A stretch of 64,000 nt of DNA, taken from NCBI RefSeq assembly GCF_000161795.2, contig NZ_CP006882.1, positions 744,001 through 808,000 on the forward strand, in the 5' to 3' direction. The DNA is from Synechococcus sp. WH 8109 (GTDB taxonomy: Bacteria > Cyanobacteriota > Cyanobacteriia > PCC-6307 > Cyanobiaceae). Of this stretch, positions 57,266 to 63,776 are shown one piece after another. The position numbers and the translations under genes were made by a program. How positions within the stretch are numbered: the first letter of the stretch is position 1; the number at the start of each line of letters is the position of its first letter. Under the pieces are notes generated by a model. It made no database searches and was not told where the DNA came from. It worked only from the letters and a program-made list of their open reading frames with translations.

Positions 57266-58060
57266 TCACTGTTGCTCTGCGGTCTTGGTCCTGTAAGTGA
57301 ACAGAAGAGCCAAGCACAATGTTCCGATCAGCGGGCCCGGGGGTAGGTCAACAGCAATCGCCAGCATCATTCCGCCACCACACAGAAGCAGCCCCGTGCT
57401 TGCGCTGCGGAGCATGAGCTCCTTCAGGCTTCGGCTGTTTTCCACGTGCATCAGAACCGGAGCGCAAAGCAGGCCAATCACCAGAATCACACCCACGGCA
57501 GTGATGGCGCTGATCACCACCAGGGCGGTGATCAGGCTGCAGATCAGCCGAATCAAGAGCACCGGTCGTTTGGCGATGGCTGCCCCCTCAGGGTCGATGC
57601 CAACGAAAACCAGGTCGCGGTAGCCCCAAATCAACATCGCCAATAGGGTTACGGCTGCAAAAGCAGTTCGCAGCAGATCTGTTGTGTTGGCGGCAAGCAA
57701 GTCGCCGAACAGAATCGTTTCCAGGTCTACCCGGGCGTCCAGCAGGGGAACCAACAGCACGCCCAGGGCCGTGAAGCCGGCCAGAACGGTGTTCATGGCG
57801 CCTACTTCCCTGTCCTTGAAGCGCCGGTTCAGGCTTTCAGCCACCAGTGCGCCAAGCAGTCCACTGATTAGGCCGCCGATGCTTGGGTCGATGCCGATGG
57901 CCAGGGCGACCACCAAGCCGGGCAGAACGGAATGGGCCATCAGGTTGGCCAGCAACACCCGGCGTTGAGTGATCAACAACGCTCCAGTGGCTGGACAGAT
58001 GGCGCCGATCAATAACGAAATCGTCAGTGGTAGAAGCCACCAGATATCGGGTTCAACCAC
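57266..58060 (-). CDS. znuB: Zinc ABC transporter permease ZnuB
   Basis: 264 residues with about eight membrane segments, ABC-3 family. LLITQRRVLLANLMAHSVLP and a central GFTALGVLLVPLLDARVDLE are typical, as is DLVFVGIDPEGAAIAKRPV before the last helices. It forms the membrane channel for the ZnuA-delivered metal. It overlaps znuC by eight bases. Family members also transport Mn; the Zur-type operator nearby favours zinc. Confidence 0.9.
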   Translation of the reverse strand: MVEPDIWWLLPLTISLLIGAICPATGALLITQRRVLLANLMAHSVLPGLVVALAIGIDPSIGGLISGLLGALVAESLNRRFKDREVGAMNTVLAGFTALGVLLVPLLDARVDLETILFGDLLAANTTDLLRTAFAAVTLLAMLIWGYRDLVFVGIDPEGAAIAKRPVLLIRLICSLITALVVISAITAVGVILVIGLLCAPVLMHVENSRSLKELMLRSASTGLLLCGGGMMLAIAVDLPPGPLIGTLCLALLFTYRTKTAEQQ

Positions 58061-58742
58061 AGCAATGGCTCCCCATCATGCAAGTCAGGTCGCTTAATTT
58101 TTCGCGAACGCTGTTGGGTGATCCGTTGGCCAGGATCTGGCCGTCCATAACAACAACCTGGTCGTAGCTGTCGAGGGCGCTGCCCCAATCGTGGCTACTC
58201 ACCAGCAGCGTCTGGCCTGCTTCCGCCTGATCCCGCATCACTTTGAGCAGATGGTCTCGCGTAGGTGGATCGATTGCGCTGCAGGGTTCGTCCAGCAGCA
58301 GGATCTCGGTCTGCTGCATCAAAGCTCTGGCCAGCAGAACGCGTTGTTGCTGGCCGCCGGAGAGCTGGTTGAGGCGTCGTGATCCAGTGGCTCCCATGCC
58401 GACGCGTTCCAGCAGCTGTTCGCAGTGGTTCTTTGTTGTGGCTTTGCCCTTTTTGGGCGCCCCCAGCTGAACCATGTCGCGAGCGGTGATCGGAAACGAC
58501 CAGTCAATGGCTGCCCGCTGGGGCATAAGGCCAATTGGCTTGCTGGAGTTGACCGTTCCCTGGCTGGGTGTCAGTCGCCCCTCCAGCAAGTGCAACAGCG
58601 TTGACTTGCCGGCTCCGTTGGGACCTACCAGCGCTGTAAGAGTTCCCGCTTGAAGTTCCAGGTTGACTCTGTCGACGGTGTTGCGGCCCCCGTAGCTGAA
58701 GCTCAGTTCGGTTGTGCTCAGCACAGAAAGCGAATCGTTCAT
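58053..58742 (-). CDS. znuC: Zinc ABC transporter ATP-binding protein ZnuC
   Basis: 229 residues from ATG 58742. Walker A is GPNGAGKSTLLHLLEG, a Q-loop follows (GLMPQRAAIDWSFPIT), signature LSGGQQQRVLLARAL, Walker B ILLLDEPCSAID, and the H-loop LLVSSHDWG. The MPQR/DWSFPIT segment is typical of metal-uptake ATPases. The open frame extends far upstream through the Zur box, which is not coding. It is co-directional with znuB and divergent from znuA. Confidence 0.92.
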   Translation of the reverse strand: MNDSLSVLSTTELSFSYGGRNTVDRVNLELQAGTLTALVGPNGAGKSTLLHLLEGRLTPSQGTVNSSKPIGLMPQRAAIDWSFPITARDMVQLGAPKKGKATTKNHCEQLLERVGMGATGSRRLNQLSGGQQQRVLLARALMQQTEILLLDEPCSAIDPPTRDHLLKVMRDQAEAGQTLLVSSHDWGSALDSYDQVVVMDGQILANGSPNSVREKLSDLTCMMGSHCCG

Positions 58743-58821
58743 CAACCCCTTGGTGGTCTGACTTGGGCCTCTTGTTGTTTTGCACACCCCATGGTGGCAA
58801 CCGATCTGGCGATCGACAGAA

Positions 58822-58836
58822 TGATAATCATTCTCA
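58822..58836. promoter_or_regulatory. Zur-type operator between divergent znuCB and znuA
   Basis: TGATAATCATTCTCA is a near-perfect inverted repeat (TGA-x-AAT...ATT-x-TCA, one mismatch across the dyad), matching the Zur box of cyanobacteria and other bacteria. It lies 79 bases upstream of znuC and 11 bases upstream of the znuA start, positioned to block both promoters when Zur holds zinc. A Fur box has a related but different spacing and is a weaker match. Confidence 0.85.
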
Positions 58837-58847
58837 CTTGGTTGGCC

Positions 58848-59765
58848 ATGCGTCCTTCCCTGGCTCAATCTGCAGGGGTGTGTGTTGCTCTGGCAATAGG
58901 CGCTTCCGTTGTTCCGGCCAATGCGGCTCAACCTGTGGTGGTTGCCGTCGACGGCACGCTGTGCGATCTCACCAAGACTTTGGCTGCAGATGCTGCTTCG
59001 GTGACTTGTCTGATCCCCCCGGGTGGTGATCCACACTCCTATCGATTAAAGCCTAGTGACCGTGCAGTGATCGCAAAGAGCGATCTCATTTTCCATATCG
59101 GTTTTGGGCTCACACCTTCTGCCACCAAGCTCAATTCACCAGGAATGGTTGTGGCTGTGGGTGAAATCGCCCTCCCGTCGTATCGCGGTAGTGACCCTCA
59201 CATCTGGCACGATCCTGCACATTCTGCTGGGATGATTCGGGTTGTCTCTGGTTCTTTAGAGCCTCTTTTGCAGGACAGCGATCGTTCGGCTTTGCGGCAA
59301 CGAACAGCTAAGGCTGTAGCTGTATTCAAGGCTCTTCAGATATGGCAAGAAAAGCAGTTCAGTTCTTTGCCCTCGGCGCAGCGGGTCATAGTGACCGATC
59401 ACAAGACCTACAGCCATCTCGCCGATCGCTTTGGAATTGTGGAGATTGCGATGTTGGACAGCCACACAACAGGTGGAGTCTTGCGTCCCTCCAGTCTCAA
59501 AAAAATTACTGAGGAGGTGAAGTCTTCTGGTGCAAAAACAATCTTTTCTCCTGCTGCATCCCCGAATAAAACCCTAAAGCGCATCAGCAAGAGTACTGGT
59601 TTGCCTATCTCGAAAACTCCGCTCTACGGAGAAGGAATTGCTGCAGGTCGTAATGCTGTTTCAACTGCGACTATGAATGCCTGCACGATTGTTAATGGTC
59701 AGGGTGGTTCTTGCGATATCACAAGTGCCAATACATTAAATGCTGAATGGTCTTCTATTCGTTGA
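58848..59765 (+). CDS. znuA: Zinc ABC transporter substrate-binding protein ZnuA
   Basis: 305 residues from ATG 58848. A signal peptide (QSAGVCVALAIGASVVPANA) precedes VVVAVDGTLCDLTKTLAAD. Putative metal ligands are His in PGGDPHSYRLKPSD, His in SDPHIWHDP and His in TDHKTYSHLADRFGI. The long His/Asp-rich loop of many ZnuA proteins is missing, and the fourth ligand is unclear. It captures zinc in the periplasm for ZnuBC. Codons are more AT-rich toward the 3' end. The next gene starts 41 bases downstream. Confidence 0.88.
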   Translation: MRPSLAQSAGVCVALAIGASVVPANAAQPVVVAVDGTLCDLTKTLAADAASVTCLIPPGGDPHSYRLKPSDRAVIAKSDLIFHIGFGLTPSATKLNSPGMVVAVGEIALPSYRGSDPHIWHDPAHSAGMIRVVSGSLEPLLQDSDRSALRQRTAKAVAVFKALQIWQEKQFSSLPSAQRVIVTDHKTYSHLADRFGIVEIAMLDSHTTGGVLRPSSLKKITEEVKSSGAKTIFSPAASPNKTLKRISKSTGLPISKTPLYGEGIAAGRNAVSTATMNACTIVNGQGGSCDITSANTLNAEWSSIR

Positions 59766-59806
59766 CCATCTCTCTATTCAACTTCCATTTCCACTCTTTC
59801 TATTCC

Positions 59807-60751
59807 ATGATCCGTACTCGTCTTCTTCTCCTGGCTCTACTTTTGAGTCCCTTTGCTTCCATGTCTCCAGCCTATGCACATGGTTCACATGGAGGCGGTA
59901 CAGAATTGGAAGCTGGTGAATTTGATTTCACTCCCCTTTTGACCGTTGAGGGTCATGTTGGATTTGATGATAATCTTGAAATTCCAGAAAAGCACATTGC
60001 AGCCGACTTTTTAATAGGTGGCGAATTTGCTTGGGGTCTTGGTAATGCTAAGCAGTTTTCTCTAAGTGCTTTCGTGGGACCTGCTTTGGTCAGAGGTGGA
60101 GCAGAGCACTTCTACGGTGAAATCCACGCAGAGGATCATAGTGAGGAAGAGCATGAGGCTCATCCGACTCGCTCAAGGGTTGATTTTAAGGCTTATCTGG
60201 AGGCTAATTACAAGCATTCGGATAGACTTAGTTTGCAGGCTTATTGGAACCCATATCTAGTTACAAGTGACGAACTAGAATTCCATGCTGAGGAAAATGA
60301 ATGGGAGAAATTTGAATCCAAGGGTATTAAGAATGAGTTGGGTGCAAAGGTTAAGTATGCATTCGGCGATGGAGATGTTGACTTCGGTCTTGGAGATTCT
60401 GTCTCTGACCTGATCGATGGTGCATATGTATCAGTTGATCATCGGCAAGGTTGGGGTGTGGATGGAGTTTTTATTGGAAATTACACTGATCCTCGTCTCG
60501 GAGTTGGTTTTAATTACGGCGAAACATCTTTCCAGGTAGAAGCCGGTCCTCGGTATTACACTCCTGGTAGCTATGCCAGCGATCTTGATTCCCGTACTGA
60601 CTTTGCAGGCGAGATCATCATCTCCCGACCAGTCAATGAAGATATTGAATTTTTTGCGCACTGGAAAGTAGTTTATTCTTGGGATAAGACGGAAGGATGG
60701 GGTCGTGGGTATCAACATCATGTTGGAACCGGTATTACATATAAGTTGTGA
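59807..60751 (+). CDS. Secreted His-rich beta-barrel-like protein, probably outer membrane, linked to zinc uptake
   Basis: 314 residues from ATG 59807, which gives a clean signal peptide (TRLLLLALLLSPFASMSPAY then AHG). The mature N-terminus is His/Gly-rich (HGSHGGG), and residues ~100-125 hold a second His/Glu cluster (HAEDHSEEEHEAHP). Alternating aromatic strands (RLSLQAYWNPYLV, VDFGLGDSVSDL, GWGVDGVFIGNYTDPRLGVG) and a C-terminal aromatic strand ending GITYKL suggest an outer-membrane barrel. It follows znuA on the same strand and ends at a strong terminator, so co-regulation by Zur is likely. Base composition is clearly more AT-rich than the surroundings. No named family recognised. Confidence 0.75.
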   Translation: MIRTRLLLLALLLSPFASMSPAYAHGSHGGGTELEAGEFDFTPLLTVEGHVGFDDNLEIPEKHIAADFLIGGEFAWGLGNAKQFSLSAFVGPALVRGGAEHFYGEIHAEDHSEEEHEAHPTRSRVDFKAYLEANYKHSDRLSLQAYWNPYLVTSDELEFHAEENEWEKFESKGIKNELGAKVKYAFGDGDVDFGLGDSVSDLIDGAYVSVDHRQGWGVDGVFIGNYTDPRLGVGFNYGETSFQVEAGPRYYTPGSYASDLDSRTDFAGEIIISRPVNEDIEFFAHWKVVYSWDKTEGWGRGYQHHVGTGITYKL

Positions 60752-60769
60752 GTTAAGGTTTTTGAGTAT

Positions 60770-60798
60770 GCCCCGCCAATTTATTGGCGGGGCTTTTT
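60770..60798 (+). terminator. Rho-independent terminator after the His-rich barrel gene
   Basis: GCCCCGCCAAT (60770-60780) pairs perfectly with ATTGGCGGGGC (60783-60793) across a two-base centre, followed by five T. This is the strongest terminator seen in the window. On the minus strand no T-run follows, so it serves only the znuA-barrel transcript. Confidence 0.93.
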
Positions 60799-60832
60799 AT
60801 TGTTTGATTTTTAAAGGTGTTAAGTATTTTGC

Positions 60833-62155
60833 TCAGCCTGCATGAAGCCACTGAGCTTCACTAATGGGTGTGTTGATCACCTTGATGAGATTCAGGCTGT
60901 CGCCATCGATCAGGCCGGCACGGGCATGGGTTTGCATAGGCCGCGTCAGCGTCATCAGCAATTGATTCGTCACTGGGTTCCACTGGATGGGGCTGCCCGC
61001 CTTGAGCGTCCACGGTTCCAGGGCCCTGCGTTGTGTCACCTCTCCCGCGTCGCTGATCAGCATCAGTTCGTGATTGCCCCGTTGCTGCTCCCATCGCCCC
61101 AGAACAGCCCAGATCCGTTTTCCGCGGTTGTCGCAGGCCACCCCCAGCACCGCCTGATTACCGAGGTGCACTTGCTTCGGTGCCTGCCCTGGAATCACTA
61201 GCTCGATTGAGCGCCTGTAATCCGGCCAGTGCCGGATCAGCACGGCCCGTCCTGAGGCACCGCAGAAGGCCCCCAGCTCCCTGCTGCCCGGCAGCATCTG
61301 TTGCTTTTGCTCGGTTGCTTGCAGGGGCCGGAGGCTCAGGCCGTTGCTGTTGGGCATCACCACGCCCCCTCCAGCCGGCAGCAACTGCATCGGCCCGGAG
61401 GGCTTCAGTGCCAGAGCCTTGCGTTTGCCATCGGCCTGCAGCAAAAGGGCCTGGTCGCTGCCCGGTTGGAACCCACCGCTCTGAATCAGCAGATCACCAT
61501 TGAGATTGCTGCTGAGATGGGCAAAGAGCACCTCCCCTTTCAACAGGGGTTCCGTGCGGCTCAGCGTTGGTGGCCCCAAGCCCGCCAGGCGGTTGGCGGT
61601 GCTGCGGGGTGTCAGTTGGCCCCACCACACCTGTTCGGTGCCGTTCTGATCGCGTCCCACCAGGGCAATACCCCGACCATTTCCCAGGGGGACGACGCTG
61701 GGGATGGCGGGCCATAGCCGACTGATCGGCATCCACTCTCCCGATCGCGTCTGTAGTTGAACTTGTTCGCCTTCCTGCACAGGCCGTGTTGCGATCAGCC
61801 AGGGTCTCGGATCCCACCACCATTGCTGCTGCCCCAGCTGCAGCCCGCGTTGGTCGTCCCCTGCGATCGATAGCTCGAGCGGAGCCGTGAGCACGGCATC
61901 CGCATCGATCACAATCCGCAGTGCTGTCGTCTCCCCCAGCCACTGATGGGGCACGGCTGGGGTGATTCTGGTGGCCTCGTTGACCTGGGGCCGATCCATT
62001 GGGCGACTGAACTGCAGATCCAGGGCCGCGCTGCCGCTTTGCACCTGCTGGGGCACCAGGCGCAGCAGCCGCGGAGGCTTTCGCAACAGCAGTTGTTGCT
62101 GCGCCAGAACTGCGGCGCAGGCCATCAGCATCAGCAGCAAGGGCCGCCGTGTCAT
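60833..62155 (-). CDS. Exported protein with N-terminal Ig-like domain, unknown function
   Basis: 440 residues from ATG 62155; a longer open frame upstream overlaps the next gene and is not coding. An export signal or anchor (PLLLMLMACAAVLAQQQLLL) is followed by an Ig-like (Big_5-type) segment: ALDLQFSRPMDRPQVNEATR, then ITPAVPHQWLGETTALRIVI. The rest is beta-rich with repeated motifs of the propeller kind (GVVMPNSNGLSLRPLQ, VLGVACDNRGKRIWAVLGRW, HELMLISDAGEVTQRR). It overlaps the TIGR03943 gene by four bases, so the operon partners are translated together. Confidence 0.75.
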   Translation of the reverse strand: MTRRPLLLMLMACAAVLAQQQLLLRKPPRLLRLVPQQVQSGSAALDLQFSRPMDRPQVNEATRITPAVPHQWLGETTALRIVIDADAVLTAPLELSIAGDDQRGLQLGQQQWWWDPRPWLIATRPVQEGEQVQLQTRSGEWMPISRLWPAIPSVVPLGNGRGIALVGRDQNGTEQVWWGQLTPRSTANRLAGLGPPTLSRTEPLLKGEVLFAHLSSNLNGDLLIQSGGFQPGSDQALLLQADGKRKALALKPSGPMQLLPAGGGVVMPNSNGLSLRPLQATEQKQQMLPGSRELGAFCGASGRAVLIRHWPDYRRSIELVIPGQAPKQVHLGNQAVLGVACDNRGKRIWAVLGRWEQQRGNHELMLISDAGEVTQRRALEPWTLKAGSPIQWNPVTNQLLMTLTRPMQTHARAGLIDGDSLNLIKVINTPISEAQWLHAG

Positions 62156-62808
62156 GGTTCCAGGGGCCGCTCGGGCCTCGCAATCGGCGTGATGTTTTGA
62201 GGAATCACGACGGGGATGCGTCGTTCGTTCCGCGTCTGCACGCTCATCGTTCCCTCGATGGCCAACCACTGGTTGGTTTGGGGGATGAACGACTCCGGCC
62301 ACTCCACGGCCAGGCCAGCGGGCGTGGCGTCGGCCAGGCAACAGCGCACTGTGAGCCGGGCGATTAGCGGTGGGCCCTGGGGTTGCCTCCAGACAAAACC
62401 GCTGATGCGAACAGGATTGCCGGCTACAAGGTCGGGATCGGGCTGGCTGCGCAGCCAGCGCACCCATTCCGTCAGGCTGCGTTGTTCGGGGGGCAGAACA
62501 AAGGCCAACTCCGGTGGATCGGGCAGGCCCTGGGGGCGGTTGCTGGCCAGATCGCTGAAGGAGGGACTCGGCGGAAGGACCAGCACCAGCGCAGCCATCA
62601 CGCCGCTGAGCAGCCAGGGCCGGTGCCAGCGTTCGTTTTGCTTCTCTTTTTTCAGCAGAAGGGCCACGCCCAGCATCAGCAAGACCAGGCCGGTGACCCC
62701 CACCAGGCCATGGAAGACACCGCGTAGCAGCAGATCGAGGCGTCCGCTGTGGAAGCTCCACAACAACGTCAGGCCCCAGAGCAGCAGCAGTGTTCCGCGC
62801 TTCAACAC
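62152..62808 (-). CDS. TIGR03943/DUF1980 family membrane protein (YcgQ-like)
   Basis: 218 residues: two N-terminal hydrophobic segments (~5-20 and 28-52), another at ~65-80, and a soluble C-terminal domain with RISGFVWRQPQGPPLIARLT and the paired cysteines C156-C157 in RCCLADATPAGLAVEW, which matches the family signature. Members pair with DUF318 permeases and are often under Zur control in Firmicutes. It starts ten bases downstream of the (repaired) permease stop. Confidence 0.88.
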   Translation of the reverse strand: MLKRGTLLLLWGLTLLWSFHSGRLDLLLRGVFHGLVGVTGLVLLMLGVALLLKKEKQNERWHRPWLLSGVMAALVLVLPPSPSFSDLASNRPQGLPDPPELAFVLPPEQRSLTEWVRWLRSQPDPDLVAGNPVRISGFVWRQPQGPPLIARLTVRCCLADATPAGLAVEWPESFIPQTNQWLAIEGTMSVQTRNERRIPVVIPQNITPIARPERPLEP

Positions 62809-62818
62809 GACCGGCCCC

Positions 62819-63776
62819 TCACAGCAGCCACAGGTTGATCCACTGACCGATTAGCAGCACGCCAAGACTGGCACCTATCGCCGTGATCAGGATCGCCCTT
62901 GGCCGCATCAGCACGGTGAACAGGCCTGCGAGTTTGAGATCCACAACGGGCCCCAGCAAGAGGAAGGCCAGCAGGGCTCCTGGGGTGATCTGAGCGGCAA
63001 ACCCCAGCGCAAGAAAGGCATCCACGCTGGAGCAGACCGATAACACCACCGCCAGCAGCATCAAGGCCAGGATCGATGCTGTCGGCGCACCCCCCCACGG
63101 CCAAAAGCCAACTGCGCGGCAGCCAGGTCTGCACCAGGGCCGCAATCACACACCCAAGCACCAGCAGAGCCAGCAGATCGAGAAATTCGCGGCAGCTCTG
63201 GTCCAGCACCTGCCAGGCCTTGAGGCGCCGGCTGCTCAGGGATCGTGGGCTGCTGGGTGATCCGCCGATCACACCACTGCTGCGCTGCAGCAGCCCCAGG
63301 TTGCTGAGGGGCTGGCTCATGCGGCGTTCCTCCAGAAGCGCAGTGGCCAGGAGCTGCGTTTCGGGCAGTTGCACCAGCGACAAACTCAGCAGAATCGCCA
63401 GCAGGAAGGCCCCCAGCGGCCGGGCCACCAGCAGCCAGGGCTGATCAGGAAACGCGGCCCAGGTGCTGGCCAGGACGATGGGATTCAGCACCGGAGCTGC
63501 AAACAGAAAGCCGAACGCCGTACCCATCGGTGCACCGCTGGCCAGCAGACGGCGGGCGACGGGAACGTTGCCGCATTCGCAGGCCGGAAGGGCAAAGCCC
63601 ATCAGTGCCCCGATGATCGGAGCCAGCAAAGGATTCTTCGGGAGCCGCTCGATCCAGGCACCCGGTGGCACCACCCATCGGGCCAGCCCTGCGATGGCAA
63701 CGCCGAGCAGCAGAAATGGAACGGCTTCCAGCAGTAACCCCTGAAAGATCGCCCAGGCCGTGGCGAGCTTGTCCAA
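62819..63776 (-). pseudogene. DUF318/UPF0718 permease (YcgR-like), frame broken in a C7 run
   Basis: From TTG 63776 the frame encodes a typical permease: LLLEAVPFLLLGVAIAGLA, the signature ALPACECGNVPVARRLLASG with C66 and C68, then APVLNPIVLASTWAAF. After ~228 residues the frame leaves coding sense at seven consecutive C (63090-63096 on the plus strand) and would end at 62802. One base fewer gives AVGGAPTASILALMLLAVVL and a natural C-terminus ending at 62819, ~318 residues. This is either a sequencing error, a phase-variable tract or a recent mutation. It is the first gene of the three-gene operon. Confidence 0.8.

Follow-up and report, generated by a model that had tools for sequence, protein, structure and literature searches.

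The described proteins most like the one reported here are ZnuD of Neisseria meningitidis and MspD of Mycobacterium smegmatis, the latter an MspA-type octamer of mycobacteria. According to the available part of the source, ZnuD is an outer-membrane protein that is repressed by Zur and carries His/Asp-rich stretches in its extracellular loops (PMC2895646). ZnuD is a plugged, TonB-dependent receptor of 22 strands, whereas the barrel of the present locus has 12 strands in about 290 residues and is plugless. MspD is a pore whose expression rises under zinc starvation and when Zur is lost; it differs in the kind of pore and of membrane, and the accessible text of PMC13098993 mentions no His-rich loop. 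A third likeness, by description only, is to ZepA of Anabaena, which is Zur-controlled, extracytoplasmic and zinc-supplying and has His at its mature N terminus. Unlike the barrel, ZepA is a secreted exoprotein, as given in the available part of PMC10957091. By analogy with ZnuD and MspD, we filed the barrel as a putative outer-membrane zinc entry protein. Compared with ZnuD, it has neither the plug and receptor barrel nor the 22 strands, and it has the His/Asp-rich loop, here presumably on the extracellular side. The preliminary description of this DNA had proposed a step missing from the textbook ZnuABC system. An outer-membrane barrel was indeed predicted, but an outer-membrane zinc step as such is already known elsewhere from ZnuD and MspD.

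Much about the regulation is known from WH8102, whose Zur is the solved structure 7NE9 (PMC9337993). As far as the available text of that paper goes, znuC and znuA of WH8102 likely have a common Zur box overlapping both -10 elements, expression of synw0968-synw0973 is raised when zur is mutated, and RNA-seq without added zinc shows higher levels of synw0971 and its neighbour synw0972. SYNW0972 resembles our barrel gene in lying directly behind znuA (synw0971), in the Zur box common to znuC and in its regulation by zinc and Zur (PMC9337993). The paper calls it uncharacterised and takes co-transcription with synw0971 as likely; the part available proposes neither a structure nor a function for it, unlike the barrel reading given here, and nowhere does the main text use "outer membrane", "porin" or "beta-barrel". 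The string SYNW097 is also absent from the main text of the WH8102 zinc/phosphate proteome paper (PMC3865332), the tables of which may list bare numbers, and within the open-licence literature SYNW0972 is named in a single paper and the nature of the barrel protein was not found in print. SYNW0972 was equated with the barrel gene by its position and by the closest genome available (G032), in which Zur is 98% identical to 7NE9 and the gene order is a perfect Zur box, znuA and the barrel gene. The expected zinc- and Zur-dependent transcription, likely shared with znuA, is borne out through synw0972, the WH8102 gene at the same position, and Zur binding has likewise been published for that WH8102 locus (PMC9337993, available part). 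Zur control of the barrel gene is therefore not new, because it has been published for WH8102; what is new is the barrel fold, the family-wide link to znuA, the His/acid loop and the pore-wall residues.

The window (the whole stretch of 64,000 nucleotides analysed, from Synechococcus sp. WH 8109) belongs to a genome of 2.11 Mb in a single contig. On the minus strand lie znuB, the permease of a zinc ABC importer (57266..58060; PF00950, E 9.7e-43), and znuC, its ATPase (58053..58742; PF00005, with AztA as the best NCBIfam match at E 3.8e-51, below its cut-off). On the plus strand lie znuA, encoding a periplasmic zinc-binding protein of 305 aa (58848..59765; PF01297, E 5.3e-40), and the gene for an outer-membrane β-barrel of 314 aa and 12 strands (59807..60751, assigned by AlphaFold2, VIA-align and PF24653). 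The ATG of the latter at 59807 is located 41 nt beyond the znuA stop. A scan of 58700-60900 found no terminator-like or promoter-like site in this gap. The barrel gene is followed at 60770-60793 by a 10-bp G+C-rich hairpin with a T-run, which together form an intrinsic terminator closing the znuA-barrel unit (60770..60798, plus strand; hairpin scan and folding energy). Its folding energy of -21.1 kcal/mol (z -4.7) was equalled by none of 200 shuffles, in keeping with the strong terminator noted earlier. The same scan gave 6 terminator-like sites in total against 2.5 expected; the five besides the strong one are weaker, with 5-6 pairs, and lie at 58755 between znuC and znuA, at 59069 and 59250 within znuA, and at 59833 and 59940 within the barrel gene.

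The Zur box, a 15-bp dyad TGATAATCATTCTCA at 58822..58836 between znuA (plus strand) and znuCB (minus strand), was located by consensus and matrix. It is the only match without mismatch to the consensus TGATAATSATTMTCA in the 2.11 Mb genome, which confirmed the Zur-type dyad proposed for this position; all coordinates given in the preliminary description were correct. Over the whole genome, sites with up to 2 mismatches to TGATAATSATTMTCA numbered 8 per strand, versus 1 for a reversed-pattern control. With a matrix built from relatives, the box scored 26.8 bits and the runner-up in the window 8.7 bits. This matrix was trained on 30 distinct boxes, all of them upstream of znuA. In the 56 loci whose upstream sequence was long enough, the box before znuA was the top site of the entire locus in 51 and was outscored by another site in 5 (L056, L061, L078, L089 and L102); it was weak in L087. 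One of the three Fur-family genes of the genome matches 7NE9 at E 1.2e-65. The unit therefore has both a Zur box in its promoter region and a SynZur orthologue in the same genome.

The predicted structure of the protein is that of an outer-membrane barrel. AlphaFold2, run on a 41-sequence alignment, gave twelve strands with a mean pLDDT of 79.7 and a pTM of 0.76. The RCC307 relative, modelled on a partly different 30-sequence alignment, gave the same twelve strands (pLDDT 76.6, pTM 0.74); the count of 12 was obtained by joining broken strands of the DSSP lists. Foldseek returned 174 PDB matches at E <=0.001, and the best 50 of the 174 are outer-membrane barrels. A signal peptide was assigned by eye from the sequence to residues 1-24 (59807..59878, plus strand; AYA^HGSH), and the C-terminal residue is F in 39 of the 41 aligned sequences and L in 2, including the protein of the window. 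With the even number of strands, these are the features of an outer-membrane barrel. The secreted His-cluster protein announced 41 bases after znuA is accordingly present, with 5 His in residues 101-123. The preliminary description had offered an outer-membrane zinc pore or a periplasmic zinc trap, and had named a structure prediction as the result that could overturn it. The outcome in the two AlphaFold models and in VIA-align is clearly a barrel. The outer-membrane half of that proposal stands, with zinc transport as the probable role, and the periplasmic trap is disfavoured by the 12-stranded barrel in both models, the signal peptide and the C-terminal F (39/41 relatives) or L (here).

No solved homologue was obtained by sequence, the best match (E 0.054) being an unrelated complex I subunit. 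The sole Pfam match is PF24653 (Phage_OMP, a cyanophage outer membrane protein-like barrel), which covers the C-terminal part only (residues 205-300, profile 22-110 of 122) at 31.5 bits, above the Pfam cut-off of 27. It was found at E <=0.01 in 28 of the 41 aligned members, with the RCC307 (15.8) and WH7803 (21.2) proteins under the cut-off. In fold, small cyanophage proteins align with some 110-130 columns of the model. RCC307 also has a PF24653 paralogue, in which the conserved His are absent as judged by eye. A phage origin was considered and rejected, as tblastn against 50,697 phage records found no relative. A scan of viral contigs gave 39 stretches that matched a pattern, none of them a relative; the phage search with the RCC307 paralogue found nothing, and a PHROGs search of the barrel protein yielded nothing useful.

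Taken with its genetic context, the barrel probably helps zinc through the outer membrane at times of zinc shortage. We put at about two in three the probability that it is a TonB-independent, 12-stranded outer-membrane channel for zinc capture, made together with ZnuA at zinc scarcity and feeding ZnuABC. The Zur box, the conserved arrangement of the genes, the fold as a barrel, the pattern of conserved His, the variable loop and the lack of a detectable TonB receptor in this genome are computed results, while zinc binding, zinc passage and the hand-over to ZnuA are what we infer from the conserved His/acid pattern and the genetic context. Under scarce zinc, zinc-free Zur would leave the box at 58822, and the znuA-barrel transcript would run to the terminator at 60770. 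The barrel would then be inserted into the outer membrane, where its surface loop, rich in His and acidic residues, would gather dilute Zn2+ and raise the local zinc. From there, Zn2+ would move to E48, H50, H63, D67, H285 and H305 on the pore wall just under the outer mouth and enter the periplasm, where the loop-less ZnuA would carry it to ZnuBC.

The conservation of His residues on the strands points to such a site. Five His (50, 63, 101, 285 and 305) are invariant in all 41 aligned sequences, and three more are nearly so (H25 and H107 in 38/41, H304 in 37/41). Judged strand by strand from hydropathy phase, H50, H63, H285, H305, E48 and D67 were predicted to face the lumen, and H304 to face outward; the phase is weak for strand 11, which carries H285 (difference 0.80), and for strand 6. 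The predicted pore-wall residues lie 1-6 residues from the outer end of strands 11, 12, 1 and 2, which are neighbours in the closed barrel. These His, Glu and Asp residues likely form a metal site below the outer mouth.

The second distinctive element is the loop between strands 3 and 4. As a rule, both ends of outer-membrane barrels of such kind face the periplasm. Since this loop joins an odd strand to the next one, we infer from the topology rule that it lies on the extracellular side. Counted from the invariant HFYG on, it spans 23-174 residues (median 44.5) and contains 3-53 His among 76 distinct proteins, in which its composition is 27% His and 39% Asp/Glu, versus 2.8% His elsewhere. In the window genome, the predicted extracellular loop comprises residues 101-123 (60107..60175, plus strand). 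With 23 residues and 5 His, it is among the three shortest of the 76, and 12 of the 76 loops have no more than 5 His; a long loop is therefore not essential. In L025, the loop is encoded by tandem repeats.

The loop also lends itself to a reading without a channel, in which the barrel is a mere anchor and does not conduct, the loop holds zinc as a surface buffer, and entry takes place through general porins. It is the most variable part of the protein (23-174 residues), and both models leave it without secondary structure and at low confidence; moreover, 12-stranded barrels can be narrow. However, the invariant strand residues are predicted to lie in the pore wall and are kept by the short-loop relatives. 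We consider a surface buffer unlikely, though it fares best among the alternatives to a zinc-capture channel.

Somewhat less probable again is an ordinary porin that is raised at zinc shortage for general permeability, as MspD is, with the His residues incidental. A porin under zinc and Zur control does exist in MspD, going by the available part of PMC13098993. In VIA-align, the best matches after the translocator domains are solved channels and porins, namely the COG4313 channel (Z 16.5), KdgM (15.3) and NanC (14.7); the likeness to this group spans Z 14.2-16.5. Incidental His residues are hard to reconcile with five that are invariant in 41/41 sequences and with a loop that has roughly tenfold the His content of the remainder.

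The top VIA-align matches are 12-stranded translocator domains, namely AaaA (Z 20.3 over 249 residues at 2.9 A), EspP (19.2) and EstA (18.9). As the VIA-align list re-examines the Foldseek matches, the absence of any given family from it is uninformative. Fold matches from Z 13.7 (LpxR) to 20.3 (AaaA), autotransporter domains among them, would also suit an outer-membrane enzyme or a surface protein of zinc stress that is no uptake device. Such a protein seems improbable here, because an autotransporter passenger domain is missing, strand 1 beginning about 14 residues after the assumed signal cleavage, and because the partnership with znuA is tight.

The TonB-independence of the proposed zinc-capture channel was examined through the TonB receptors. 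A profile search of the whole genome detected neither a TonB receptor barrel nor a plug, and plug PF07715 and receptor barrel PF00593 gave no match to the barrel protein at E up to 1. No TonB-receptor plug was found in 81 of 90 genomes of the family, many of which are incomplete. Of the genomes with the barrel, 43/49 are without a plug and 6/49 carry one as well, so a strict replacement of TonB receptors by the barrel is not supported. The partner ZnuA is distinctive too. Zinc-specific ZnuA has been described with a His-rich loop, according to the available part of PMC8786288. No 30-residue segment of the window's ZnuA contains more than 3 His, which places it in the class without a His-rich loop, and 53 of 56 partner ZnuA proteins had no His-rich stretch. 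Exceptions with a His loop are L101 and, as judged by eye, the ZnuA-like gene of RCC307, so the absence is not strict. It is as if the His-rich element missing from the partner ZnuA were now placed on the barrel.

The barrel family was found only in picocyanobacteria. A scan of named genomes, which is not exhaustive because it required conserved peptides, gave 62 barrel loci (two of them, L065 and L108, from one bin), all in Synechococcus, Prochlorococcus, Cyanobium, Vulcanococcus or cyanobacterial bins; the closest relative among them is that of Synechococcus sp. MU1642, at 82% identity. Among 292 sampled cyanobacterial genomes, the barrel was present in 17, all in the window's own family. 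The conservation of the neighbourhood with znuA, suggested earlier as a check, proved strong. In 59 of the 62 loci, the barrel gene is immediately preceded by znuA on the same strand, and znuA is upstream in 120 of all 131 fetched loci, many of which are duplicates. The 11 others break down into four contig ends, one distant relative (L050) and six entries that are detached loci or duplicates of these. The znuA stop overlaps the barrel start in 5 loci (L064, L065, L069, L080 and L104). Within the window's genus, genomes at least 90% complete have znuA in 19/19 and the barrel in 18/19. The remaining one of these (G007) has kept znuA with a decayed barrel remnant behind it; G057 and G081 have znuA without the barrel. 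Across the 90 family genomes (G000-G089, the family being assigned from the listing order), 46 have both genes, 3 znuA only, 3 the barrel only and 38 neither (Fisher p 3e-18, uncorrected for relatedness or incomplete genomes). For this table, G007 and the distant relative in G064 (29% identity) were removed from the 51 barrel matches, and znuA was counted from matches of at least 41% identity, which excludes the other ZnuA class (29-38%).

Where the two genes are parted, the barrel gene keeps a Zur site. In the detached loci L067 (Prochlorococcus AG-363-O15), L094 and L111 (RCC307), which were left out of the matrix training, the highest-scoring Zur site of the locus is located 30, 78 and 91 nt, respectively, before the assumed barrel start; for L094 and RCC307, alternative start codons shift this distance to 42 and 31 nt, respectively. 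In a fourth detached case (G058), the best site of the locus is also before the barrel gene, but it is weak at 11.6 bits. In RCC307, zur itself lies upstream of the barrel gene (7NE9 match at E 1.3e-41), and the locus has two more Zur sites, one between the His-rich ZnuA-like gene and a permease gene and the other before a CobW-family gene. That the barrel gene merely happens to follow znuA and is unconnected with zinc is strongly disfavoured, and is the least credible alternative of all, given the linkage in 59/62 loci, the barrel's own Zur sites when detached, the regulation published for WH8102 (PMC9337993, available part) and no direct evidence found in its favour.

The proposed TonB-independent zinc-capture channel offers a Zur-controlled candidate for the passage of trace zinc across the outer membrane of marine Synechococcus and Prochlorococcus. 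With defined pore-wall His and a loop that can be deleted, the question of zinc at the outer membrane becomes directly testable in the tractable WH8102. If the reading is true, outer-membrane metal capture can do without TonB, by way of a surface loop tuned through repeats. More tentatively, and with the odds somewhat against it, the system may be a picocyanobacterial form of the zinc importer in which the His-rich collector has moved from ZnuA to a surface antenna on a TonB-independent, zinc-selective channel. The antenna, rich in Asp-Asp-His and with up to 53 His per loop, might change in length as short tandem repeats are gained and lost, which would adapt the cells to natural waters poor in zinc.

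One further observation concerns the 3' side of the barrel gene. Why synw0973 responds to Zur was left open in PMC9337993, as far as the available text shows. In the closest genome (G032), the gene 3' of the barrel is convergent with it, and the two 3' ends are a few bases apart. If synw0973 is that convergent gene, antisense read-through could explain its Zur signal. In the present window, the terminator separates the barrel gene from the following gene.

A natural loss of the barrel was found in G007, a genome of the same family that is 98% complete. Its znuA and a Zur-like site are retained, and the barrel gene behind them is reduced to a broken remnant (L049:4961-6812). This genome can serve as a comparison for the barrel-bearing ones. 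The barrel is also absent from another family member, G081, in which the znuA class that accompanies the barrel is present. By eye, G081 carries a TonB-dependent receptor gene adjoining ExbB/ExbD/TonB-like frames (L154:2732-7965), and its znu cluster (L147) contains a Zur-type gene. Inspection by eye likewise placed a Zur-type gene within the znu clusters of two Prochlorococcus genomes (L150:5197-7209 and L151:3671-5446), where it is flanked by znuC and znuB and runs antiparallel to them.

In RCC307, a second, shorter barrel directly follows the first (L111:6917-7687). Two separate stretches of it match PF24653 (Phage_OMP), and the invariant His residues are absent by eye. The matches of the barrel model in BFVD included small cyanophage proteins of 119-176 residues, which covered about 110-130 columns with TM-scores by target length of 0.50-0.70. 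These proteins look as if phages might carry a half-barrel.

Beside the zinc locus, the minus strand encodes a 440-aa protein, convergent to the barrel gene, and a TIGR03943/DUF1980 putative permease subunit (window 60836-62808). Searches of Pfam and NCBIfam gave no match for the 440-aa protein. Similar genes were also seen by eye near the barrel in RCC307 and in the related genome G032. The subunit gene is followed by an ArsP_1-type permease (PF03773 profile match; 62822-63776, minus strand). This gene is interrupted: its reading frame shifts at about 63.1 kb, which puts the first 224 aligned residues in one frame and the last 91 in another. This might reflect either decay or a sequencing error; in two relatives, by comparison, the permease occupies an uninterrupted single frame.
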